From: Nocardia sp. BMG111209
GTDB taxonomy: Bacteria; Actinomycetota; Actinomycetes; Mycobacteriales; Mycobacteriaceae
Length of the DNA: 64,000 nucleotides
Assembly (NCBI RefSeq): GCF_000381925.1
Contig: NZ_KB907309.1
Location: forward strand, 1,364,001-1,428,000
Reading direction: 5' to 3'
Shown: positions 16,002 to 32,032 of the stretch, one piece after another
How positions within the stretch are numbered: position 1 is the stretch's first letter
Layout of the letters: each line of letters begins with the position of its first letter
Program-made: the position numbers and the translations under genes
The notes under the pieces: generated by a model
What the model saw: only the letters and a program-made list of their open reading frames with translations
What the model was told of the DNA's origin: nothing
Databases searched by the model: none

Positions 16002-17351
16002 TCAGTTGGTGCGTACCTGCAGCCCCGGGTTGTCGGCGAGTACCAGATCCACCGGCTGGACGAACAGCTGCGGTCCGTTACCGGTCAGGACGCCCAGCAG
16101 CTCCGGGATCTCGCAGACCGGGAAGTCGGCCACCGTGGAAGCGCTGGAGATACCCAGCGCCAGGGTGCCGCTCACCACCGGGCCGCCGCTGTCGCCGGGC
16201 AGCGCGCAGATGTTGGCCGAGAAGCTCTGCGTCAGATCGTGATCGCCGACCTCGACGGTCTGATCGACGGCGTTGATGACACCGCAGCTGAAGCCGGTGC
16301 GGGCACCGGACTTGCAGACCGGGGCACCCACGACCGGGGTCGCGACGCCGGTGACCGGGATCGGGCCCTGGCCCGCCCGGACGAGGTTGTTGCTGAACCG
16401 GCCCTGGTTCGCGTCGTTGATACCCACGATGGAGTAGTCCTGCGCACCCAGTACCGACTTCTCGAACGAACCGACCTGCGCACCCAGGTGATCGCCCGGC
16501 AGCAGGTCGAATACGCCGGGGGCGTCGCCGGTGCCGGCGGCCGGGATGTTCGGATCGCAGTGGCCCGCGGTGATGTTCACGACGTTGCCGCCGCCGTCGA
16601 TACCGTTGAAGCCCAGCGAGCAGCGCAGCGAGAGGTGGCCGGCCTGCGAGGCGTACGCGTCGCCCGCCGCCGCCGGACCGCCGCCCTCACCCGCGACCGC
16701 GGTGGCCTGCAACGGCTCCGGGCCCCGCGGCGGGGCGGCCATCACGATCACGCGGGCCGGGTCGACGAATCCGGGCATCGGCAGCCCGGCCTGATCGACG
16801 CGGACCGCGACCGTGTTGTTGACGACGTCGATCACCGCGCCGCGCACCGACTTGGCCACGTCCTGCGGCTGGCCGGTCAGCCACTGCTGGAAGGAGTTCT
16901 TCTCGTCGCGCAGCGCGGTCTGCGTCTTGGCGACGTCCTTGACCTCGAAACCGACGGCCTGCGCGGCCTTCCGGACGGCGTCCTGCCCCGGTCCGGGTAC
17001 CAGCGCTACGACCGCCTTACCGGCGTTGTCCAGCCACGCACCGCCGAAGACGTCCGGATACTGCTGCTGCGCATTGGTCGAGAAGGCCGCCACCTGCTGG
17101 GCGAGGCCGGCCCGGCGCAGATACTCGTCGGCGGACAGTTTCAGGTCCCGCTGCACTGCCGCGGCCAGATCGGCCGGGAGGGCCGGAGAGGCCGGCGCCG
17201 GGCTCGGCGCGGGGGCCGGATCGGCCGACGCGGTCACCGCGAGCGGGCCGAGGACCAGGGCCGCGGCGGACGCGGCGACGACTGCTTTGCGCAAGTGTGG
17301 GTGCGTGTTTCGCCCGGTAACGGACGAGAGACGGATGCGTGGCAGGAGCAT
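16002..17351 (-). CDS. Secreted trypsin-like serine protease (S1), paralogue 1
   Basis: The 449-residue precursor has a signal peptide (RKAVVAASAAALVLGPLAVT, cleavage likely after TASA). A propeptide-like region of about 180 residues (LPADLAAAVQRDLKLSADEYLRRAGL) resembles the pro-segments of alpha-lytic protease and streptogrisin. The chymotrypsin-fold domain shows His in NITAGHCD, Asp in AQDYSIVG and Ser in PGDSGGPV. Cysteines pair plausibly as in S1 proteases (RCSLGFN with AGHC; VCKSG with SCGV; NICALPGDSGG with FPVCE). It acts outside the cell after self-cleavage of the pro-region, by analogy. It is the downstream member of a tandem pair with the gene ending at 17424 (72 bp away). The substrate is unknown. 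Confidence 0.9.
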   Translation of the reverse strand: MLLPRIRLSSVTGRNTHPHLRKAVVAASAAALVLGPLAVTASADPAPAPSPAPASPALPADLAAAVQRDLKLSADEYLRRAGLAQQVAAFSTNAQQQYPDVFGGAWLDNAGKAVVALVPGPGQDAVRKAAQAVGFEVKDVAKTQTALRDEKNSFQQWLTGQPQDVAKSVRGAVIDVVNNTVAVRVDQAGLPMPGFVDPARVIVMAAPPRGPEPLQATAVAGEGGGPAAAGDAYASQAGHLSLRCSLGFNGIDGGGNVVNITAGHCDPNIPAAGTGDAPGVFDLLPGDHLGAQVGSFEKSVLGAQDYSIVGINDANQGRFSNNLVRAGQGPIPVTGVATPVVGAPVCKSGARTGFSCGVINAVDQTVEVGDHDLTQSFSANICALPGDSGGPVVSGTLALGISSASTVADFPVCEIPELLGVLTGNGPQLFVQPVDLVLADNPGLQVRTN

Positions 17352-17423: not shown

Positions 17424-18788
17424 TCACCCGAGGTTCGGGCTGGTCCGGACGCTGATACCGGAACCGACTCCGCCACCGGAATTGGCATCGATGTCGTCCA
17501 GAATCGCCCGAATCGGGATACCCAGCGATGCGGTGCCGCCGTATTGAGCGAGATCGATATTCGCCTCACGGCAGTTCGGTGCGTCGGCGGCATTGGAACC
17601 ACTGGTGATTCCCAGCGCCATCGTGCCGGACACGATCGCGCCGCCGGAATCGCCGCCCAGGGTGCAGGCGGTGCTGGCGAAGCCGCGGACGGTCTTGGTG
17701 TCGCCCTCGGACGTGTACAGCTCGGTCTCGACCCGGTCCGCCACCACGAAACCACAAGTGAACGTGGACGATTGGCCGGATTTGCAGATCGGCGCGCCGA
17801 CCACCGGATCGGCGGTGCCGGTGATGGTGAGCGTGGTGCCGTTGGCGCCGCGCATCCGCGGCTGATCCATTCCGGCCCGGACGGCCCGGTCGTTCAGCTG
17901 GATCACCGAGTAGTCGAGGCCGGTGCGCCCGCCCAGCTTGGCCTGGACGAAATTGCCGACCTGCACACTGGACTTCAGGTCGCGGACGTTCGGCACGTAC
18001 ACGCCGGCCGCCTGGTCGCCGCTGCCGAGGTTCGGATCGCAGTGTCCCGCACTGATATTCAGCGCGTTACCGGCTCCGTCGACGGCGTTGAAACCGAACG
18101 AGCAGACGTCCACGCTGGTCAGCGACGGATCGTCGAGGGAGGTCTTGGTGCTGATGTAGGTGTCGCCCGCCATCGGCTTGTGCTCGATCGGGCCGCCGCT
18201 GTTCGGCGACAGCACCACCTTCACGTTGGCGATCAGGGTCGGCAGGTTCAACAGGTGACCGGCCGGGGTGTTGGCGACCTGCAGCACGATCTGGCTGTTG
18301 AGGAAGTCGATGGCGACCGAGTTGATCGCGGAGGAGATCTCCCGCGGCAGTCCGCCGATCCAGGAGGTCAGCTGATCCAGCGACCCCTCCAGATTGTCCG
18401 CGGAGATCGGCGCGAGCCGGGTCTGATAACCGTCGGAGGCGGCGATCCGGGCGGCGTCGAGCGAGGTGACCGCCATGACCGGCTTACCGTCGGGATTGAG
18501 CCAGGCACCGGCGAATTCGTCGGGACGCTCGGAGCGGAACTCGCGGGCGTAATCGCGCAACTGCTGCGCGCGGGTCGCGCGGTCGAGATATTCCGCCGCG
18601 GTCATCTTCAGATCGCGGCCGACCGCCTGGACGAGTTCGGGCGGCAACTGATCGGCCGGGGCGTCGGCCGCCGGGGCGGGATCCGCCTGCGCGGCACCGG
18701 AGACGAATACGGGACTGAGAAGTACGGTAGAGGCAATCGCGGTGGTGACTGCTCTGACCGTGGCGCGCCGCGCCGCCAACTTGCGCAT
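17424..18788 (-). CDS. Secreted trypsin-like serine protease (S1), paralogue 2
   Basis: The 454-residue precursor starts MRKLAARRATVRAVTTAIAS with a signal peptide cleaved after AAQA. The pro-region (LPPELVQAVGRDLKMTAAEY) aligns with that of the neighbouring protease, and the catalytic triad is visible as His in NISAGHCD, Asp in GLDYSVIQ and Ser in GGDSGGAI. The usual GDSGGP is GDSGGA here, a mild change near the oxyanion loop. Cysteine pattern (DVCSFGFN/AGHC, ICKSG/TCGF, TACTLGGDSGG/NCRE) mirrors paralogue 1. The two genes look like an old tandem duplication with about the same layout and are probably co-transcribed. Confidence 0.9.
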   Translation of the reverse strand: MRKLAARRATVRAVTTAIASTVLLSPVFVSGAAQADPAPAADAPADQLPPELVQAVGRDLKMTAAEYLDRATRAQQLRDYAREFRSERPDEFAGAWLNPDGKPVMAVTSLDAARIAASDGYQTRLAPISADNLEGSLDQLTSWIGGLPREISSAINSVAIDFLNSQIVLQVANTPAGHLLNLPTLIANVKVVLSPNSGGPIEHKPMAGDTYISTKTSLDDPSLTSVDVCSFGFNAVDGAGNALNISAGHCDPNLGSGDQAAGVYVPNVRDLKSSVQVGNFVQAKLGGRTGLDYSVIQLNDRAVRAGMDQPRMRGANGTTLTITGTADPVVGAPICKSGQSSTFTCGFVVADRVETELYTSEGDTKTVRGFASTACTLGGDSGGAIVSGTMALGITSGSNAADAPNCREANIDLAQYGGTASLGIPIRAILDDIDANSGGGVGSGISVRTSPNLG

Positions 18789-18972: not shown

Positions 18973-20151
18973 TTACTGAGGTATCTGGAGCGTGGGCAGC
19001 CGGGGAATGTCCGGCGACGACCCGTAGGGATCACCGTACGGGTAGGGGTAGGGATACGGGTACGTCGGGGTGCGGGTCGTCGAGCTGCGTGGTGCGCGCC
19101 CGGTGGTGCGCGGCGGCGAGGTCGGCGTGGGTGTCGTGGTGGGCGGCGGCGGAGTGTCGGTGGTGGTCGGTTCCGGGGCGGCCTCGGTGGTCTCCGGCGT
19201 CTCCTGGGTGTCGGCCGGTTCCACACTGGTCGGGGCCGATTCGGACTGGGTGGGGGCGGGTACGGGTGGCGCGGCGGCCGTGGTGGGCGTCGGTGTGGTG
19301 CGCGCGTTCGGGGCTGCGGGGGACATGTTCGCGCGCCACGCCAGTCCCACCACCACGGCGCCGAGCAGCAGGCCCAGGAACGCCGCCGCCGCGACCAGCG
19401 CCGTGGTCCGGCGCGTCCGTCGCGGTAACCGGGTCGCGGTGGTGGCCAGGGCCGTCGGCGGTGCGACGTTCTCGGCGACGGCCGTCGCGTCCTCCGGGCC
19501 GATCGGTTCGGCCAGCGGCATCGCCGCCGAATAGGCCTGTGCCACCCGCGGCTCGTTCAGTGCGGGCAGGACATCGGTGACCTGCAGCGAGGTCTCGCTG
19601 TGCGTCGGGTCGGGCGGGGTGGTGCCCGCCGGGGTCGACAGCACCGCCGACAGCGCGGCCTGCGCGGCGGCGTGGGCGACGGCGTATCCGGAGGCTCCGG
19701 GTTCCACCACCAGATCGCCCTCGCTGACCAGCACCACCGCGCGCAGGCCGAGATAGTCCAGCGCGTCCCGCACCGAGCGCACATCCTCCTCCGGCCAGCC
19801 CGGCGGATAGGTGGCGTAGAACTCCGCGGGCCCGACCAGATGTTCCGCGACGAGGTTGATCAGGCAGAACAGTGCGGTGGCGAGCAGATCCTCCGGCCGG
19901 TACGCGGGGCCCGAATCCACCGAGACACCCGCCGGATCGCCGATGGCGGAGACGAAGTTCCGGATCGAGTGGCTGTGCCCCGGCAGCGGCTGACCACCGA
20001 GTTCGGTATCGCCGTCGTCGGCCATGTGCAGTACCGACTCGCGGAGGACGTAATGGGGTTCGGGCGCACCGGCACCCGGACTGCCGACGCCGGCGACGAT
20101 CGCGGCAACGCTCACGTCCTCGGCGATCCGCAGGCCGACCCCTGTCGCCAT
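18973..20151 (-). CDS. Membrane-anchored half-Hsp70 (ATPase lobe I) protein
   Basis: The 392-residue protein has an N-terminal part (1-180) that follows lobe I of an Hsp70 ATPase domain: an opening strand GLRIAEDVSVAAIV, then RPEDLLATALFCLINLVAEH and FYATYPPGWPEEDVRSVRDA, lined up with the DnaK segments around ARVLMKLK and [16 protein letters not shown]. The phosphate-binding DxGTT and the lobe II motifs are absent, so ATP hydrolysis is doubtful. A single membrane helix (about 250-272) is followed by a Thr/Pro-rich tail ending in a run of YP dipeptides, presumably outside. It is the last gene of a three-gene minus-strand set, 72 bp after the IniR-like gene. The Hsp70 relation is my reading, not a search result. 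Confidence 0.7.
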   Translation of the reverse strand: MATGVGLRIAEDVSVAAIVAGVGSPGAGAPEPHYVLRESVLHMADDGDTELGGQPLPGHSHSIRNFVSAIGDPAGVSVDSGPAYRPEDLLATALFCLINLVAEHLVGPAEFYATYPPGWPEEDVRSVRDALDYLGLRAVVLVSEGDLVVEPGASGYAVAHAAAQAALSAVLSTPAGTTPPDPTHSETSLQVTDVLPALNEPRVAQAYSAAMPLAEPIGPEDATAVAENVAPPTALATTATRLPRRTRRTTALVAAAAFLGLLLGAVVVGLAWRANMSPAAPNARTTPTPTTAAAPPVPAPTQSESAPTSVEPADTQETPETTEAAPEPTTTDTPPPPTTTPTPTSPPRTTGRAPRSSTTRTPTYPYPYPYPYGDPYGSSPDIPRLPTLQIPQ

Positions 20152-20223
20152 CTCCCTTACCTCGCTTCGATGTACGGTGCGCCATCGTGCACGGCCGTCC
20201 GCAGTATCACACCGGGCGGGGTG

Positions 20224-23200
20224 TCACACCAGCAGCGAGCCGTGTCCCATGGCGCGGAGCATAGACAATAACTCCGACCTGGAACCGGCTCCGATGCGAC
20301 GTCGGATCCGTGCGACATGATGCTCCACCGTCTTCGCCGAGATGTACAGTCGAGCGCCTATTTCCCGGTAGGTCAGACCGAGCAGCACCAGCTCCGCGAC
20401 CTCGCGTTCCCGTTCGCTGAGAATGGTGCCGGGCGCGGGCGCCGGCGCCGTGGGCGGCGGCATCGCGGCCTCGGATCGTGCCGCGCGCTGCTGCGGCCTG
20501 GCCTCGGCGCGAACCGTCCGGGCCAGCTTGAGCAGCGCCGTCGCCACCGCCGGATCCGGCGCCGCCAGCGCGGCGTCGGAGGCCAGCCGACCGGCGTCCC
20601 AGATCATCCCGATCCCGGCGAGCCGCCGGACCGCGGCGGCCACGCCGTCGTGATCGACCTCACCGCGCAGTGCCAGCACCCAGGTGCGACCGGCGTCGGC
20701 GAGGACCGCGGCGTGGATATCGCCGGCCTGCGCGGCGGCCTTCAGGCGTTGTGCGGGGGGTACCAGCTCGTCCGGGCGCTCCCGGGCGATCGAGGCCTGG
20801 ATGGCGTACCAGTGGAAAGCGTTCGCCCAGGCCGGGGGATATCCGAGCCGTTGCAGCAGCTCCGCGGCCGCGTCGACCAGCGTCGCCACCCGGCCCTCGT
20901 CGCGCAGCCGGATGGCCGCGAGCCAGAGCTCACCGATCGGCAACAGCGCCAGCAGATCCGCCGTCACGTCGTCGAACAGCGGACGGGCGGCCTCCCAGGC
21001 CCGGGTCAGCGCGGCGTGATCACCACTGCGGCGGGCCAGGCCGACGGTCACTCCGTGCGCGAGCAGCCGGTCACGGGCCTGGAGTGCGGCGAGATCCAGC
21101 GCGGTGACGATATCTGCGGCGCCCTGTTCGTCGCCACCGAGCATTGCCGTCCAGGCGGTGAGCACCAGCAGCTGCGGATCCTGCTCGGACCCGCCGCGCA
21201 GCGCGTCGGCGGCGCGGCGCGGTTCGCCCATGCTGAGGCACAGCAGGGTCGCGATCGACGCCGCGGTACAGGGCAGGAAGCGGTTCGAGGCGCCACCCGG
21301 CGCGACCTCGGCGCGCGCGGCCTGGATCAGCGCCGATGCGGCAGGGGTGACCGTGGATCGGGATTCACCCAGCGCCGGGTCCACCCCCATCGCGCTTGCC
21401 GACCCGGGAGTTGTTGCCTCGGTGATGGTTCCGTTCGGAGTGGACGAACCCGCCGGCCCACCGCGCGGTGCCGCATAGACCGACCCGGAAGTTGTTGTGC
21501 TGGTGATGGTTCCGGTCGAGGTGACCGAACCCGCGAGCCCACCGCGCGGTGTCGCGTCGGTCGGCCCGGAAGTTGTTGTGCTGGTGCCGGTTCCGTTCGG
21601 ACTCGACGTAACCGCATTCCCACCGTGAGCTGCCGCGATCGTCTGCGGGGCGGCCGCCGCGGTGCTGTCGATCGCGGGCAGGTACGTGGCGCCGGTCGAC
21701 GGCACTGATGCCGCCGCGCCGATCCCGGGAAGGTGGGTGAGGCCGGTGGACGGTACGGATGTCGTCTCGTCGATCGCGGGCAGGTATGTGGCGCTGGTAG
21801 ACGGCATCGATACCGCTGCGCCGATCCTGGGAAGGTGGGTGGGACCGGTGGACGGCGGCACGGATGTCGACTCATCGATTGCGGGGAGATAGGTGGTGGA
21901 CGGCACCGATGTCGACTCGCCGACAGTGGGCAGATGGGTGGGGCCGGTGGACGATACCGATGTCGGTTCGCCGACCGAGGGAAGGTAGGTGAGGCCGGTG
22001 GCGGGGATCGGTGGTGTCGTCGCGCCGGTGGTCGGCAGATAGGTGGGTGCTGCGGCGGTGGTCCCGTTGATCGGGGACGGACTCGTGCCGTGCACGAGCG
22101 GGGTGGTCTGCTCGATCGGGAACGGATCCGTCGCGCCGTCCGCCGCTGTGGTGACCGCGGTTGTGGACGGATGTGCGGTATCGGCGGACGGGTCCGTCGC
22201 GCCGACGGAACGGCCCAGGGCCGCGACGATCAGGGCGGCGCGCGCGGTCGCGTCGGTCGGCGGCCAGCGGTCCGCGGTGGCGGACAGTGCGGCCGCGGCC
22301 TCCACCTCACCGGCCAGGTACTGCACCGTCGCGCCGACGGCCCAGTCCGCGCCCACCCGGTGCGCTCCCAGCCACGAGTACAACTGGGCGGCGCGTTGCA
22401 CCAGCCCGCGGCGGGTCCACACGCCCGCGCAGATGCGCACGGCCGCAGCCAGATCCGCGTCCGAGACGTCGGTGCGGCCCAGTACCGGTTCGGCCAGCCG
22501 CAACGCGGTGTCGCCGTCGCCGGCCTGCGCGGCGGCCTCGGCCCAGCGCACCGCGACCGCCTGCGGATCGGCGCCCGCCGCCACCGCCGCGGTGTAGTAG
22601 CGCACGGCGTCGTCGGTCTTCTCGGCTGCCGCGCAGAGGTATTCGGCCAGCCGGGGTTCCCGGACGCCGGACTCCGCGAGCAGCAGGGCGGTGTGATCGC
22701 GCAGCAGTCCCGCGTCGAGACGGGCCTCCAGCAGCCGTCGCTGCACCGTCAGGTAACGGCGGTCGCCGACCAGGGTGCGCAGGGGTGCGACCGCCGGCGC
22801 GGGGAGCAGATCGGCATCGGTCACCAGCGCGCCGGCTCGGGCCCGGTCGATGAGATCCCAGGCGGTGGCGTGGTCGACGCCGAGTACCTCGGTCAGTTCG
22901 CCGGGATCCAGCCCCGCGCCGGTGGCGGCGACGACCAGTACCTCCAGCAGGTCGGGTTCCGTCCGATCCAGCAGTGCCCGAGCCCAATTCGTCACGGCCG
23001 CGTCGACGGCGGCGATCCCGGCGTCCAAGCGGGCGGCGCAGGCGGCGGTGAGCGCCGTGACCACGCCGCCGTGGATACCGCCGGTCTGGCGGTGGATGTG
23101 CTGGGTCACCGATCGCGGCACGGTCATCCCCAGTTCACGGGCGAACGGGGCGATATCGGCGCTGCCCAGGGCACGCAGTTCGAGTACCCGGCCGCGGCGC

Positions 23201-23595
23201 GACACGGTCTCGGCGAGCGCGCGCAGCCCGAGGTCGTGCGGCCGCGGGCGGGTGGCGACGACGATCGTCCGGTTACCGGACTCCACGACGGCGCGAAGTC
23301 GTTCCAGCGCCGCCGGTTCCAGCGTGTGGGCATCGTCGATGATCAGCGCCGCCGGTGCGGCGTCGCGGCCGATATCGGGTCCGTCGTCCGGCGGCACATC
23401 GGCGCGGGACGCGATCCCGCGGGCGTGCAACCGGTCCCGGATCGCCGCCAGCAGGGTGGATTTACCGGTTCCGCAACGGCCGCGGACCAGATGGATGAGC
23501 GGACGCGAGGACGCGGTGTCGAACTCCCGCAGGATCTCTCGTGCGCCCGGCAGTGAGGCGAACGCGATGGTCGGGGACACGGTCACCTCATCCAT
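20224..23595 (-). CDS. iniR: IniR-like AAA-TPR-LuxR transcriptional activator with repeat insert
   Basis: The 1123-residue cytosolic regulator has Walker A GRCGTGKST at about residues 39-47, Walker B AALIIDDAHTLEP, a helical TPR-like body and a C-terminal LuxR helix-turn-helix (residues 1058-1115, YISAKTVEHHVARIRRRIGA). By order and neighbourhood it matches Rv0339c/IniR, the activator of the iniBAC envelope-stress operon in mycobacteria; an IniB-like gene lies divergently nearby. Residues 450-750 are a Ser/Thr/Pro-rich insert of two repeat families, absent from ordinary regulators. ATG 23595 overlaps the Hsp70-like gene by 8 bp; GTG at 23586 or 23580 is possible. Its target is probably the IniB-like promoter (inference). 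Confidence 0.8.
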   Translation of the reverse strand: MDEVTVSPTIAFASLPGAREILREFDTASSRPLIHLVRGRCGTGKSTLLAAIRDRLHARGIASRADVPPDDGPDIGRDAAPAALIIDDAHTLEPAALERLRAVVESGNRTIVVATRPRPHDLGLRALAETVSRRGRVLELRALGSADIAPFARELGMTVPRSVTQHIHRQTGGIHGGVVTALTAACAARLDAGIAAVDAAVTNWARALLDRTEPDLLEVLVVAATGAGLDPGELTEVLGVDHATAWDLIDRARAGALVTDADLLPAPAVAPLRTLVGDRRYLTVQRRLLEARLDAGLLRDHTALLLAESGVREPRLAEYLCAAAEKTDDAVRYYTAAVAAGADPQAVAVRWAEAAAQAGDGDTALRLAEPVLGRTDVSDADLAAAVRICAGVWTRRGLVQRAAQLYSWLGAHRVGADWAVGATVQYLAGEVEAAAALSATADRWPPTDATARAALIVAALGRSVGATDPSADTAHPSTTAVTTAADGATDPFPIEQTTPLVHGTSPSPINGTTAAAPTYLPTTGATTPPIPATGLTYLPSVGEPTSVSSTGPTHLPTVGESTSVPSTTYLPAIDESTSVPPSTGPTHLPRIGAAVSMPSTSATYLPAIDETTSVPSTGLTHLPGIGAAASVPSTGATYLPAIDSTAAAAPQTIAAAHGGNAVTSSPNGTGTSTTTSGPTDATPRGGLAGSVTSTGTITSTTTSGSVYAAPRGGPAGSSTPNGTITEATTPGSASAMGVDPALGESRSTVTPAASALIQAARAEVAPGGASNRFLPCTAASIATLLCLSMGEPRRAADALRGGSEQDPQLLVLTAWTAMLGGDEQGAADIVTALDLAALQARDRLLAHGVTVGLARRSGDHAALTRAWEAARPLFDDVTADLLALLPIGELWLAAIRLRDEGRVATLVDAAAELLQRLGYPPAWANAFHWYAIQASIARERPDELVPPAQRLKAAAQAGDIHAAVLADAGRTWVLALRGEVDHDGVAAAVRRLAGIGMIWDAGRLASDAALAAPDPAVATALLKLARTVRAEARPQQRAARSEAAMPPPTAPAPAPGTILSEREREVAELVLLGLTYREIGARLYISAKTVEHHVARIRRRIGAGSRSELLSMLRAMGHGSLLV
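21400..22050. repeat. Two repeat families inside the IniR-like gene
   Basis: 21400-21625 contains about three copies of a roughly 78-bp unit (marked by GTTGTTG and CCACCGCGCGGTG). 21655-22050 contains alternating units of about 48-51 bp that encode TYLPAIDExTSVPSTG and THLPxIGxAxSVPSTG. All unit lengths keep the reading frame. Copies are diverged, so the array is not a recent expansion throughout. Confidence 0.85.
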
Positions 23596-25135
23596 CCACG
23601 CGGGAGAGTATCGGCCCGGCCGCCTGCGGGACCGAACCCGTTCCGCTCGAATCCGATACCGTGCCCGGATCGTCGACCCGGCCCGGTGACAGTTCCGAAT
23701 CCTCCGGTGCGAGAGTCGGATCGGACTGTGGCGGTAGGCCGTTCGAGTTCGAATCCGGTCCGGTCGCCGCGACGGTCGTGGTGGGCACCACCGGGGAGGC
23801 GATCCCCGGCGCGGCCGTCGGCCGGGTCGCGCTGACGGAACCACTCATCGGATCCGACGTCTGCCGGGACGTGCCCAGCCCCACGATGCCGGTGGCCAGC
23901 ATCGCGACCGCGACCAGCGCGCCGCCGAACATCGCCAGTCGCCGGCGGGCCGGACCGTGGTCCCGAGGCCGGGGTAGGTCCGGGGTGTCCCGGCCGGGCC
24001 GCGAATCCGGTTCGGGCGGTGCGGTGGCCGCGATCGGTGGTACGGGGGGCACCGGCGGAATCGGGGGTACCGCCGCCGGTGTCACGGTGATGGTCGGCGC
24101 GGCCGGGATCGGTTCGGTGATCGCGGCCGAAACCACCATCGTGGCAACGGATTCCGTGGACGTCTGCAGCAGATCCACCGCCAGCAGCGCGGCGCCGCGG
24201 GCCGCGGTCCGGGCGGGATCGCTCGCGGACATCACCGGCAGGCCGAATTCGGTCGAAAGCAGTTCCGCCACCAGGGGAATCGAGGCGCAGCCGCCGGTCA
24301 GCAGGAATCCGCCCAGTCCCTTCGGCACGACCTCGGCGCGGCGGAGGGTGGTCCGGACCAGACCCAGTGTGTCGAGCAGCGATTCGCGGTAGAGATCCTC
24401 CACCTCGTCCCGGACCAATCGGATATCTCGCATCACTCCGGGCAGCCGGATCGGAACGATCGTGGCGGAATTTCCGGAAAGGTCTTCTTTCGCAATTTGA
24501 CAGCGGCGTCGCAGTACCGCCAATTCCCTTTCGACGTCCGGATCCAAGGGGTCCAGTTCGACGTCGCGCAGTACGTTTGCCAGGACGTAACGCATGATGA
24601 GCAGGTCGAATTCGGCGCCACCCACCTCGGTACCGCGCATCGGCACGCCGAGCAGCCCGCCGCGCGGTCCGCCGCGCACCGCCGAGACCGTCACTCCGGT
24701 GGCGCCGAGGTCGTACACCACCACGACATCGGTCCCGACCCCGTATTCGTGCTCCAGCCAGCGCAGGGCCGCGGTCGGCTCCGGCACCAGCGCGACGTCG
24801 CGGCGGCCAGCCCAGTCCAGTGCCGTGCGCTGCGCCGCCATGGTCTGCCGTGACCACCACGCGGGGCAGCCGACCACCGTGGTGGCGGGCGCGTAATCGT
24901 CGATCACGCGGCCGATCAGCGCCGCCACCAGGTCGGCGGCCCGCACCGACACCCCGTTCTCGCTGAGGATGTCGGCGGAATCACCGACCCGGGACAATAG
25001 GTTTTGCGACAATTCGGGCGCCGGAATCGGCGCGCTGGGTCGAATCTGCGTGGCGCCCCGGTGTGCCCCGGAGGTCGTCACGGCGACGGTGTTCGCCGCG
25101 CCGACGGTGATGCCGAGCGCCAGGCCCTGAGTCAT
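23588..25135 (-). CDS. Membrane-anchored Hsp70-type ATPase domain protein
   Basis: The 515-residue protein begins at ATG 25135 after AGGGG. The first 340 residues are an Hsp70/actin-fold ATPase domain: phosphate-1 GITVGAANTVAV, VPEPTAALRWLEHEYG, phosphate-2 VYDLGATGVTVSAV, and adenosine motif LLTGGCASIPLVAELL. The canonical DLGTTNS is changed to TVGAANT. There is no peptide-binding domain; instead a Pro-rich linker leads to one membrane helix (about 396-416) and a Ser/Thr/Pro extracytoplasmic tail. It is the first gene of the minus-strand set with the IniR-like regulator, and its stop codon overlaps that gene's start. It may sense or gate the regulator through nucleotide state (speculative). 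Confidence 0.85.
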   Translation of the reverse strand: MTQGLALGITVGAANTVAVTTSGAHRGATQIRPSAPIPAPELSQNLLSRVGDSADILSENGVSVRAADLVAALIGRVIDDYAPATTVVGCPAWWSRQTMAAQRTALDWAGRRDVALVPEPTAALRWLEHEYGVGTDVVVVYDLGATGVTVSAVRGGPRGGLLGVPMRGTEVGGAEFDLLIMRYVLANVLRDVELDPLDPDVERELAVLRRRCQIAKEDLSGNSATIVPIRLPGVMRDIRLVRDEVEDLYRESLLDTLGLVRTTLRRAEVVPKGLGGFLLTGGCASIPLVAELLSTEFGLPVMSASDPARTAARGAALLAVDLLQTSTESVATMVVSAAITEPIPAAPTITVTPAAVPPIPPVPPVPPIAATAPPEPDSRPGRDTPDLPRPRDHGPARRRLAMFGGALVAVAMLATGIVGLGTSRQTSDPMSGSVSATRPTAAPGIASPVVPTTTVAATGPDSNSNGLPPQSDPTLAPEDSELSPGRVDDPGTVSDSSGTGSVPQAAGPILSRVDG

Positions 25136-25416
25136 TCGAGAACCCCTGTCGTTCGAAACGCGTGCATGTGCGTCACGTGCCGGTTGACTAGCCGTACGGT
25201 CACTGCGATCTACCCGCCTGTCGGTTGCTGAGCGGGTTGCGTTACCGACTTCGGGAAAATTCGGGGATATTCCCCTAATCCGCGGTTCGCCCCCAACATG
25301 GACGCTCCGGATTTCGGGGGGTGCGGCCCCGATTCGGAAGGCTCCGTGATCTTCCTAGCGTGAAAGCAATTCACCGCGGACCGCTCGGCCGGCCGCCGAT
25401 CCGGAGAGGGAGTTCG
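25136..25416. promoter_or_regulatory. Divergent promoter region, Hsp70-like/IniR set and IniB-like gene
   Basis: The 281-bp spacer separates two divergent transcripts. A perfect palindrome GGGGA-TAT-TCCCC lies at 25263-25275, and a second G/C inverted repeat (GGGGG...GCCCC) at 25316-25327. Both are candidates for a regulator such as the IniR-like protein. No sure -35/-10 could be assigned. The IniB-like ATG is preceded by GGAGAGGGAG. Confidence 0.4.
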
Positions 25417-26751
25417 ATGAGTCCCAACGTGATCCTCGAGTTCATCCTCGGACTGCTGCGCGATCACGAGGCCGCCGCCGGATACTGCGCGGACCCGGCC
25501 GCGGCCCTGTCTGCCGCCGGGTTGGCCGGGGTGACACCGGAGGACATCGCCGCGGTGGTTCCGATGGTGGCGGAATCAGTGTTGATCACCGATGGTTCCC
25601 GGCTCGCGACGGTCATGGCGGCGTTCGAACCGGCTGTCGCCGAAGTTCGCGAATCCGGCGAGCGGAGTGCCGATTCCACCGGATACCCCGGCTCCGGCGC
25701 GAACGGGCGCGGTCTCGCGGGCCGGGCGAACGGGAACGATCTGCTCACCGGTGGCGTCGGGTCGAACGGACGCCGTGCGGGTGCGCCGGAAACTCCCCGT
25801 GCTGTGCCGGGCGGTGGATTCGCCGTACTCGATTCGGAATTGGCCGCGAGCCTGCGGGATTGCATCACCGGAGGTGTCGCGCCCGGTGGTCTCGGATCCA
25901 CGTTCGCCGGAATCGGCCGCGTTCCCGGCATGTTCGCCGGAATCGGTCCGTCCGGCGACCCGCCGGCGCGGTCCGGGGAGAACGCGCGCGATCCGCTCGC
26001 GGCGAGTCCCGTTGTCCGGCCGCACGGCTGCGCGCCGATCGGCAGCGAATCGGCGGATGTGACCGGCGGGTCGGAGAGCATGTTCGGTGTAGAAGTCATC
26101 ACGGATCTCGGTGCTCGCGCGGATGGTGCCATTGCGGGAATCGGGCTCGGAAATATCTCCGCGCCGAACGGTTCGGAATCGAGTGGATTCGGTTGTTCCA
26201 CCGATGGTTCCGCATCCACCGGTGAGCTCACCGTCGATCTCGATGGTAGCGGCAGCGTCCGATTGCCAGGCGTTTTCCACAGCGATCCAGCAGGATTCGA
26301 GCCGCGGTACGACCCGGTCGATCCGGCCGCGGAGCTAGGGTGCCCGCCCGGACATGCGAGGTCGGCGCATCCGGGCGGGGACGGGATCGCACAGGGAACC
26401 GACCGGTCCGGCGACGCGCTCGACGGCCCCGACGGCGCAGGTGCGCCGAGCCTTTCGGATGAGGGAAGGTTCGGCGGCGACGCGTCCGGGGCCGGTGCGG
26501 CAGCGTGGCCGGACTCCGGCTGGGATGTCTCGGAGGTGCTGAGCCGGTCGGATGAGGGCGGGCTCGGTCATGGTTCGCCGGGATTCGCTGGTGGCCCGGC
26601 GGACCGGAGATCGGTTCGCTCCGGGTCACCCGCGGTTCCGGTGTGCGGTCCGGCCGATCACGGGATGTTCGAGGGCGTGGCGGGCGCCTGGTCGAGTGTG
26701 GATGTGGCGCAGGCCTTCGGCGCGGGGATGGTTCGAGAGTTCCAGGGGTGA
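25417..26751 (+). CDS. IniB-like protein
   Basis: The 444-residue frame from ATG 25417 starts with a helical domain of about 70 residues (VILEFILGLLRDHEAAAGYC, PAAALSAAGLAGVTPEDIAA) that matches the N-terminal domain of IniB (LFRS, then DPxxALxxAGLxxxTPxxI). IniB is the first product of the isoniazid-inducible operon in mycobacteria. The remainder is low-complexity Gly/Ser/Asp-rich, lacking the long Gly-Ala runs of the mycobacterial protein. There is no signal peptide. A few isolated cysteines occur. The iniA/iniC dynamin genes do not follow; the next gene is a dehalogenase 85 bp away. Molecular role unknown. Confidence 0.75.
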   Translation: MSPNVILEFILGLLRDHEAAAGYCADPAAALSAAGLAGVTPEDIAAVVPMVAESVLITDGSRLATVMAAFEPAVAEVRESGERSADSTGYPGSGANGRGLAGRANGNDLLTGGVGSNGRRAGAPETPRAVPGGGFAVLDSELAASLRDCITGGVAPGGLGSTFAGIGRVPGMFAGIGPSGDPPARSGENARDPLAASPVVRPHGCAPIGSESADVTGGSESMFGVEVITDLGARADGAIAGIGLGNISAPNGSESSGFGCSTDGSASTGELTVDLDGSGSVRLPGVFHSDPAGFEPRYDPVDPAAELGCPPGHARSAHPGGDGIAQGTDRSGDALDGPDGAGAPSLSDEGRFGGDASGAGAAAWPDSGWDVSEVLSRSDEGGLGHGSPGFAGGPADRRSVRSGSPAVPVCGPADHGMFEGVAGAWSSVDVAQAFGAGMVREFQG

Positions 26752-26836: not shown

Positions 26837-27694
26837 ATGCCCGTCATCGACGTTCTCGATTCGTATCTCAACTACACCGACGTCGGCGCCGGCGCGGTTC
26901 CGGTCGTATTCCTGCATGGCAATCCGACCTCGTCGTATCTGTGGCGCAACGTGATTCCGTACGTGAGCGACCGGACCCGCGCGCTGGCGCCGGATCTGAT
27001 CGGCATGGGCGAATCCGGTAAGCCGGAGATCGGTTACCGCTTCACCGATCATGCCCGTTACCTCGACGCCTGGTTCGACGCGCTGGGTCTGGACCGGGTG
27101 GTCCTGGTCGGCCACGACTGGGGTGGCGCACTCGGAATGGATTGGGCGGCAAGGCATCCCGACCGAGTTCTGGGAATCGCGGTACTGGAGACCTTCCTGC
27201 GTCCACTGACCTGGAGCGAGATGCCGCCGCGCGGCGCGGAGATGTTCCGTCGATTCCGATCGCCGGAGGGTGAGCAGGCGATTCTGGTGGAGAACTCGTT
27301 CATCGAATTCAACCTGCCGTTCGGCGCGAAATCCCTCACCCCCGCCGACCTAGACGTGTACCGGGCGCCGTATCCGACGCCGGAATCCCGCCGCCCGATG
27401 CTGGTGTGGCCGCGCGAGTTCCCGCTGGACGGCGAACCCGCGGACGTCGTGGCGATCGTGGAGAACTACGACCGGTGGATGGCCGGGTCGCCGGAGATCC
27501 CCAAGCTGGTGATGGCTGTGGAGAACGGCGTCGGGCTCGGCTCCCCGGAGGTGATCGACTGGGCCGTGTCGACGTTCGCCGCCGCCGAGTCCGTCGGTAT
27601 CGGGCCTGCCGGACATCGCGCTCCCGAGGACCGTCCCGATGCCATCGGTACCGCGATCTCGGATTGGCTGGACAAGCACGCACTGCTCGGCTGA
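26837..27694 (+). CDS. Haloalkane dehalogenase
   Basis: This 285-residue alpha/beta-hydrolase hydrolyses carbon-halogen bonds (EC 3.8.1.5). ATG 26837 follows GGAAGGA. The halide-binding Asn is N29 in HGNPTSSYLWRN. The nucleophile is D94 and the second halide ligand W95 in GHDWGG. E118 in LETFLRPLTW fits the acid position of the DhaA subfamily, and H260 in GPAGHRAPED completes the triad. Length agrees with the family. It is close behind the IniB-like gene but in an unrelated role. Actual substrate cannot be read from sequence. Confidence 0.9.
   Translation: MPVIDVLDSYLNYTDVGAGAVPVVFLHGNPTSSYLWRNVIPYVSDRTRALAPDLIGMGESGKPEIGYRFTDHARYLDAWFDALGLDRVVLVGHDWGGALGMDWAARHPDRVLGIAVLETFLRPLTWSEMPPRGAEMFRRFRSPEGEQAILVENSFIEFNLPFGAKSLTPADLDVYRAPYPTPESRRPMLVWPREFPLDGEPADVVAIVENYDRWMAGSPEIPKLVMAVENGVGLGSPEVIDWAVSTFAAAESVGIGPAGHRAPEDRPDAIGTAISDWLDKHALLG

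Positions 27695-30187: not shown

Positions 30188-32028
<1,841 letters not shown>

Positions 32029-32032
<4 letters not shown>

Follow-up and report, generated by a model that had tools for sequence, protein, structure and literature searches.

The window analysed here is a stretch of 64,000 nucleotides (nt) from Nocardia sp. BMG111209 (assembly GCF_000381925.1, contig NZ_KB907309.1, positions 1,364,001 to 1,428,000), whose genome comprises 9.14 Mb in 5 contigs. Our subject is a locus in it that holds an IniR-like regulator, a divergent iniB-like gene and, next to the regulator, a gene for an Hsp70-like protein. On the minus strand, transcription runs through a full-length Hsp70-like protein (23588-25135, 515 amino acids (aa); Pfam HSP70, 77.5 bits over residues 85-320), the IniR-like regulator (20224-23595, 1123 aa, with an ATPase, a middle part and a LuxR-type helix-turn-helix (HTH); NF038181 471 bits, GerE 50.6 bits), a half-Hsp70 (18973-20151, 392 aa, recognised by profile and Foldseek) and then two secreted serine proteases. 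The iniB-like gene (25417-26751, plus strand, 444 aa) diverges from them, and its IniB N-terminal domain matches NF038175 with 66 bits against a cut-off of 40, the only such match in the genome. Gene starts were set by a simple in-house caller and the nearest start codon; the likely start of iniR is the ATG at 23595, which gives an 8-nt overlap with the preceding Hsp70-like gene. A preliminary description of this DNA had named the two Hsp70-like genes, the IniR-like gene and the divergent IniB-like gene, and had noted an overlap of the first two minus-strand genes. All four lie where it placed them, family models and profiles agree with its names, and the overlap is there; the set was drawn too small, leaving out the two protease genes further along that strand.

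Is this arrangement conserved in relatives? Among 201 genomes of the family, 106 proved to have IniR, and the surroundings of all 106 genes (the window and 105 other loci) were mapped with profiles built for this analysis. Seven loci with iniR at a contig edge (L007, L015, L053, L064, L066, L085 and L106) were left out of the upstream count. Of the 99 judgeable loci, 97 have the Hsp70-like gene immediately upstream of iniR, the exceptions being L049 and L032; L065, in which one reading frame spans two genes, was set by hand as present, and only a fragment of the gene is present in L069 and L073. The distance from the Hsp70-like stop to the conserved IniR start ranges from -200 to 120 nt in 95 of 96 cases, and iniB is divergent in 95 of the 97 paired loci, the other two being contig edges. 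At the level of the order, IniR is present in 90 of 249 genomes, of which 65 belong to other families; 20 of these 65 loci were fetched, and in 18 the Hsp70-like gene immediately precedes iniR, with no more than 166 nt between its stop and the conserved IniR region. The usual layout there is iniC-iniA-iniB, divergent from Hsp70-like-iniR. In L118 the pair stays together in a rearranged block, where iniR is followed on its own strand by iniB and the dynamins; L129 has the same genes rearranged and still together, and in the fetched stretch of L116 iniR was found alone. Scanning with the regulator gave 33 loci, all from Nocardia (partly overlapping the family set, L139 being L010 in content, and with N. 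brasiliensis counted twice), the nearest being that of N. aurantia with 91% identity in the best segment. Five of them are cut upstream of iniR (L137, L144, L150, L162 and L163), and 27 of the remaining 28 carry the Hsp70-like gene immediately before iniR. A chance neighbourhood was dropped as an explanation in view of the 97/99 family loci and 18/20 order loci.

The neighbourhood is also specific. A profile of 43 Hsp70-like proteins was run against the 201 family genomes, with the best 4 or 6 candidates scored per genome. It gave 86 matches of at least 450 bits, all of which were assigned, by hand count, to genomes with IniR; no match at that level was found in the 95 family genomes without IniR. 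One fragment of 426 bits comes from G014, a 66% complete genome in which no IniR was found, and weaker relatives of about 260-345 bits occur in g29 away from iniR and also in genomes without IniR. The Hsp70 fold itself is common, since HSP70 matches occur in 12 stretches of the source genome; the iniR-linked branch is the specific one. The preliminary description had made the idea of one system depend on gene order being conserved in relatives and on the Hsp70-like proteins travelling with the regulator. Both hold, the first in the two sets of loci counted above and the second for all 86 matches. Because the order is conserved and high-scoring orthologues were not seen without IniR, the view that Hsp70-like gene, iniR and iniB form one system stands, as judged from gene neighbourhood. 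The locus is best read as the form that the IniR/iniB envelope-stress locus takes in Nocardia, and by the same measure the Hsp70-like gene is a core member of it, and an overlooked one. A dnaK-like gene beside iniR of M. smegmatis is mentioned in one sentence of Boot et al. 2017 (PMC5760070); no further report of an Hsp70-like partner of IniR was found in the open-licence literature, where older subscription work may have been missed.

What kind of protein does this gene encode? The AlphaFold2 model has 283 of 515 residues at 90 or above, its top Foldseek match is DnaK (E 7.5e-21), which identifies the fold of the nucleotide-binding domain, and the Hsp70-like profile aligns to the window's own DnaK over residues 1-357. 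No substrate-binding domain was found in the protein: the DnaK match stops before a membrane helix at about 397-414, and the remainder, a low-complexity outer tail, is of low confidence in the model. For the family, 93 upstream proteins were aligned after removal of three shorter than 500 aa, and DnaK residues were mapped through one profile alignment. A hydrophobic helix is present in 92 of the 93, and all 92 have the positive flank that places the lobes inside by hydrophobicity. The tails are Pro/Ala/Thr-rich and of low complexity, and 89 of the 93 contain no cysteine; a folded outer sensor domain was dropped as a candidate for this reason. Of the residues that serve hydrolysis in DnaK, D8 is never Asp, K70 is never Lys and T199 is Thr in only 7. 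Much of the nucleotide pocket is retained: D194 in 92, G196 in 93, S274 in 91, both adenosine-loop glycines (93/93 and 92/93), K270 as Lys in 79 and Arg in 13, and E171 as Glu in 70 and Asp in 20; the adenosine pocket has lost E267. We infer that the lobes bind nucleotide without ordinary hydrolysis. The full Hsp70 ATPase domain of the preliminary description thus survives as a pair of nucleotide-binding lobes that have lost residues of hydrolysis. Its claim that both Hsp70-like proteins share the same anchor and tail holds in kind, in that each has one helix, a positive inner flank and a Pro/Thr/Ser-rich tail; the profile match between them stops before the helix.

Could these proteins be ordinary chaperones that lie near dnaK by coincidence? 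The window has dnaK at 30188-32032 (842 bits), about 5 kb from the Hsp70-like gene, and the genes behind it, up to 34340, resemble grpE, dnaJ and hspR, though only in order and size. In M. tuberculosis, too, dnaK presumably lies near the iniBAC locus. This proximity speaks for the chaperone explanation, which is very improbable: the proteins have no substrate domain, D8 and K70 are lost in all 93 and a membrane helix is present in 92, many paired loci show no dnaK-level match in the fetched stretch, and the pair also occurs in other families.

The half-Hsp70 has lobe I only, a membrane helix at about 251-273 and a Pro/Thr-rich tail. It has no Pfam match of its own. Residues 1 to about 172 fold with high confidence; its profile matches lobe I of the first Hsp70-like protein with 99.8% probability and DnaK with 69%, and Foldseek against DnaK structures gives E 1e-5 with low template-modelling (TM) scores. 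Having no second lobe, it is not expected to bind nucleotide in the manner of Hsp70. In 51 of the 106 family loci (L015 included) iniR is immediately followed by a second Hsp70-like gene, and in 7 more (six of g22, and L032) such a gene comes 2-5 kb beyond iniR. Judged by the length before the helix, this second copy is full in g22, g27 and g29 and half in g1, g2, g16, g23, g26 and most of g6. Its half form looks derived, an inference from the full-length copies in g22, g27 and g29. Loci of the genus g6 (L038, L089, L091, L092, L097, L098, L100, L102 and L103) often carry two Hsp70-like genes behind iniR, either a half and a full one or two halves.

The regulator itself is IniR-like by descent and place. 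Its NF038181 score of 471 bits is below the curated cut-off of 750, so that it is called IniR-like here and not a strict member of that family; only 9 of the 106 family genomes with an NF038181 match exceed the cut-off. The layout of the model is covered end to end, 3-436 and 445-824 of 827, in two pieces around an insertion, and the gene adjoins and diverges from the iniB region with the Hsp70-like gene between them. The insertion is a Ser/Thr/Pro-rich segment of roughly 280 aa in mid-protein, largely absent from the N. aurantia IniR (874 aa). Three loci of the same genus (L007, L009 and L013) have a second, shortened IniR of about 530 aa between iniR and the half-Hsp70, with the N-terminal ATPase part and the HTH and without the middle.

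Mycobacterial IniR is described as a MalT-like STAND protein whose overexpression by itself induces iniBAC (PMC5760070). It works in M. tuberculosis and M. marinum, and trehalose induces iniBAC; whether IniR itself senses trehalose was left open in 2017 (PMC5760070). IniR multimers form without added trehalose or ATP (PMC5760070). One explanation is that IniR alone senses trehalose or another soluble ligand, and that the Hsp70-like gene is an accessory tuner in some lineages. Its function in two mycobacteria and the induction by trehalose would fit this, as would L049, in which no Hsp70-like gene is adjacent. We consider it unlikely, given that the pair is kept in 97/99 and 18/20 loci and that multimers form without the sugar.

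Is there a common regulatory site in the divergent promoter? An unsupervised motif search in 53 intergenic regions between iniB and the Hsp70-like gene returned the dyad TTAGGGGATnnncCC, with a log-likelihood of 418 (best of 25 starts) versus 67 in shuffled sequences (best of 12). A site TTAGGGG-N3-7-CCCCTAA within 3 mismatches of the 14 positions is present in 75 of 92 intergenic regions, with 3.9 expected from shuffles, and the left half is much better conserved than the right. The window site is TTAGGGGAATATCCCC at 25263-25278 on the minus strand. Its exact form, TTAGGGG-N5-CCCC, occurs once in the window, versus 0.01 expected, and nowhere else in the genome; allowing one mismatch adds 11 sites genome-wide, the overlapping reverse reading included. 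A second dyad of the pattern GGGG-N5-CCCC, ATCGGGGCCGCACCCC, lies at 25318-25333 on the minus strand; as a pattern match with 0.17 expected it is weak alone, and it resembles the CATCGGG element of the order. This related element was found in the 17 order-level intergenic regions tested, with L116, L118 and L129 left out and the stretch ends of L126 and L128 estimated. Because chromatin immunoprecipitation (ChIP) puts mycobacterial IniR directly before iniBAC (PMC5760070), the dyad is a natural candidate for the IniR operator, a putative role suggested by its position. That report also asks why IniR regulates only iniBAC (PMC5760070), and a nearly unique dyad would explain the restriction.

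The preliminary description had noted that no iniA/iniC dynamin gene follows iniB. This is correct at the locus: none was found behind iniB in the window, where a haloalkane dehalogenase (26837-27694) comes next, and two distant dynamin paralogs lie elsewhere in the genome. N. aurantia likewise has no dynamin match at the locus and a haloalkane-dehalogenase-like gene, named by its likeness to the window gene, in their place; L008 shows no dynamin in the fetched stretch either. Dynamin genes were found in 85 of the 106 family stretches, with edges counted as misses, and L032 has them on the other side. In this species and N. aurantia, a near relative, the loss looks secondary, because other Nocardia loci have dynamins. 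The missing dynamins do not mark a distinct unit, with dynamins at 85 of the 106 loci and the loss shared by N. aurantia. That iniA and iniC had moved elsewhere was considered and dropped, since both remote dynamins share about 40% identity with their best matches at the loci and are probably old paralogs. At each of the two remote loci (L114:8435-13941 and L115:3326-9905) an IniA-like dynamin follows a very long gene (1238 and 1592 aa) that has no NCBIfam match, possibly as dynamin systems of their own.

Two secreted serine proteases of the alpha-lytic type end the transcription order, protease 1 (17424-18788, minus strand, 454 aa; Pfam Trypsin 24.8 bits) and its paralogue protease 2 (16002-17294, minus strand, 430 aa; found by a profile built for this analysis). 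Both begin with an apparent signal peptide, as seen by eye, and have the catalytic motifs AGHC and GDSGG, with DYSV in protease 1 and DYSI in protease 2. Protease 1 matches PDB 2pfe and alpha-lytic protease and, weakly (E 0.0011), the alpha-lytic pro-region (2pro). Protease 2 has no Pfam match, and its NF051463 score of 23 bits is far under the cut-off. Among 120 proteins of the protease pair across loci, 107 are 400-480 aa long; all 107 have AGHC and GDSGG, and 88 have DY[STA]. At least one protease of the pair is present in 67 of the 106 family loci and both in 51. Since profile mapping of the fetched stretches found neither in the loci of g29 or g11, the pair is placed outside the core of the locus.

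There is a further question of concern, how would the Hsp70-like protein act? Distances in 73 loci co-vary between IniR and the Hsp70-like protein with 0.55 given IniA (bootstrap over genera 0.39-0.70) and between the Hsp70-like protein and IniA with 0.71 given IniR, and IniR and IniA co-vary with about 0 given the Hsp70-like protein. This would set the Hsp70-like protein between the regulator and the effectors, a position that does not prove contact. We propose, with about an even chance of being right, that it is a membrane-tethered, nucleotide-binding gate on IniR, in the style of MalK on MalT. That the Hsp70-like proteins are transmembrane switches controlling the regulator, as the preliminary description suggested, is likewise a hypothesis. 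The protein would span the membrane, its nucleotide-binding lobes facing the cytoplasm and its disordered tail reaching into the wall, and at rest it would keep IniR at the membrane or inactive. Wall damage would be sensed by the tail or by way of the secreted proteases; the lobes would then change state (ATP-bound or empty, little hydrolysis being expected) and IniR would be freed to act on the dyad, turning on iniB and, in the other direction, its own operon. The half-Hsp70 might compete for the same IniR contact or stabilise it. The iniA/iniC effectors of membrane fission would be the part lost in this species and N. aurantia. That overexpressed IniR induces by itself is expected if a holder is titrated, and plain mass action could do the same. 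An adjacent partner that is kept across the order, is membrane-anchored in the family and has a nucleotide pocket is a direct candidate for signalling from the wall to IniR, and if the proposal is true, an Hsp70 would here have given up chaperoning to regulate a STAND ATPase. A bolder form, tentative and in our view rather improbable, makes the catalytically silenced Hsp70 a transmembrane transducer, whose disordered wall tail senses damage or is clipped by the co-encoded secreted proteases and signals through nucleotide-bound lobes to the STAND regulator. If this were true, IniR would be the output and not the sensor of the isoniazid/ethambutol-induced response.

In another explanation the Hsp70-like proteins are effectors, actin-fold membrane scaffolds that place IniB and, in loci that have them, the IniA/IniC dynamins at the damaged membrane, and IniR merely switches them on. 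The value of 0.71 between the Hsp70-like protein and IniA would be natural for scaffolds, and so would lobes eroded differently from one family to another and the g29 paralogs of about 260-345 bits, which lie away from iniR and also in genomes without it. The dyad fits too: it lies between the two transcription units, so that one regulator probably drives both. Yet the window and N. aurantia have lost the dynamins and keep both Hsp70-like proteins, and the tight coupling, an overlap here, is with iniR. We regard the effector role as possible, though on the unlikely side.

Several observations weigh against a gate on IniR. Adjacency and co-variation fit a joint effector equally well, and with an iron-sulfur (Fe-S) neighbour as species control (35 loci) IniR and the Hsp70-like protein co-vary with 0.40 in a wide interval, -0.05 to 0.74. 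The link of IniR to the dyad is drawn from position, and in BCG the iniBAC promoter has a different palindrome, which is bound by another regulator, HpoR (PMC13413693). N. alni (L159) keeps iniR and the half-Hsp70 and lacks iniB and the Hsp70-like gene together, with no close dyad left at the locus; an alcohol dehydrogenase-like gene stands in their place. L032 is without both iniR neighbours, and the partner is not needed everywhere, since the Mycobacterium-like L049 has iniR and iniB without it alongside. Outside the family, 9 of 19 Hsp70-like proteins have no clear membrane helix, and the pocket erodes at different residues, several proteins keeping the first Asp and losing D194 (by eye); in L120 and L124 the second lobe is shrunken (by eye). 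Judging from these proteins, neither membrane tethering nor nucleotide binding is universal. As pocket and helix vary in this way, the conserved feature may be the lobes as a binding surface. In 14 of the 19 order-level proteins (L117-L135) there is an RPPV/I stretch near the end, often as PPRPPV-I-PL-LP, a possible docking motif.

How does the proposed gate compare with known systems? With DnaK and other Hsp70 chaperones the protein shares its N-terminal fold and a good part of the nucleotide pocket; it differs in having no substrate domain, in the loss, mostly or wholly, of D8, K70 and T199, and in its membrane helix and wall tail. RsgI of Bacillus, a wall sensor with a disordered tail, has a cytoplasmic signalling part, one helix and a disordered outer tail; its cytoplasmic part is an anti-sigma factor, whereas here there are actin-fold lobes. 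In E. coli, MalK is a membrane inhibitor of MalT, and the regulator is bound to the transporter until the signal comes. MalT is, like IniR, a STAND ATPase with a LuxR-type HTH, and the maltose system has been used as a comparison before (PMC5760070); the suspected holder here would be a protein of the Hsp70/actin fold, not an ATP-binding cassette (ABC) ATPase. GTPase conflict systems also have an Hsp70 without the peptide-binding domain near GTPases, but the GTPases are others, the setting is defence, and IniR and IniA are absent from the text of that report (PMC7159879). The closest system is the cell-envelope stress system IniR/iniBAC of mycobacteria, with a related regulator, a divergent iniB with the same N-terminal domain, and iniA/iniC as in most relatives of the window locus (PMC5760070). 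Compared with iniBAC, the window adds a half-Hsp70 and two proteases and has lost the dynamins; and where the available text of that work names no membrane partner (PMC5760070), the loci described here have a constant Hsp70-like gene upstream of the regulator.

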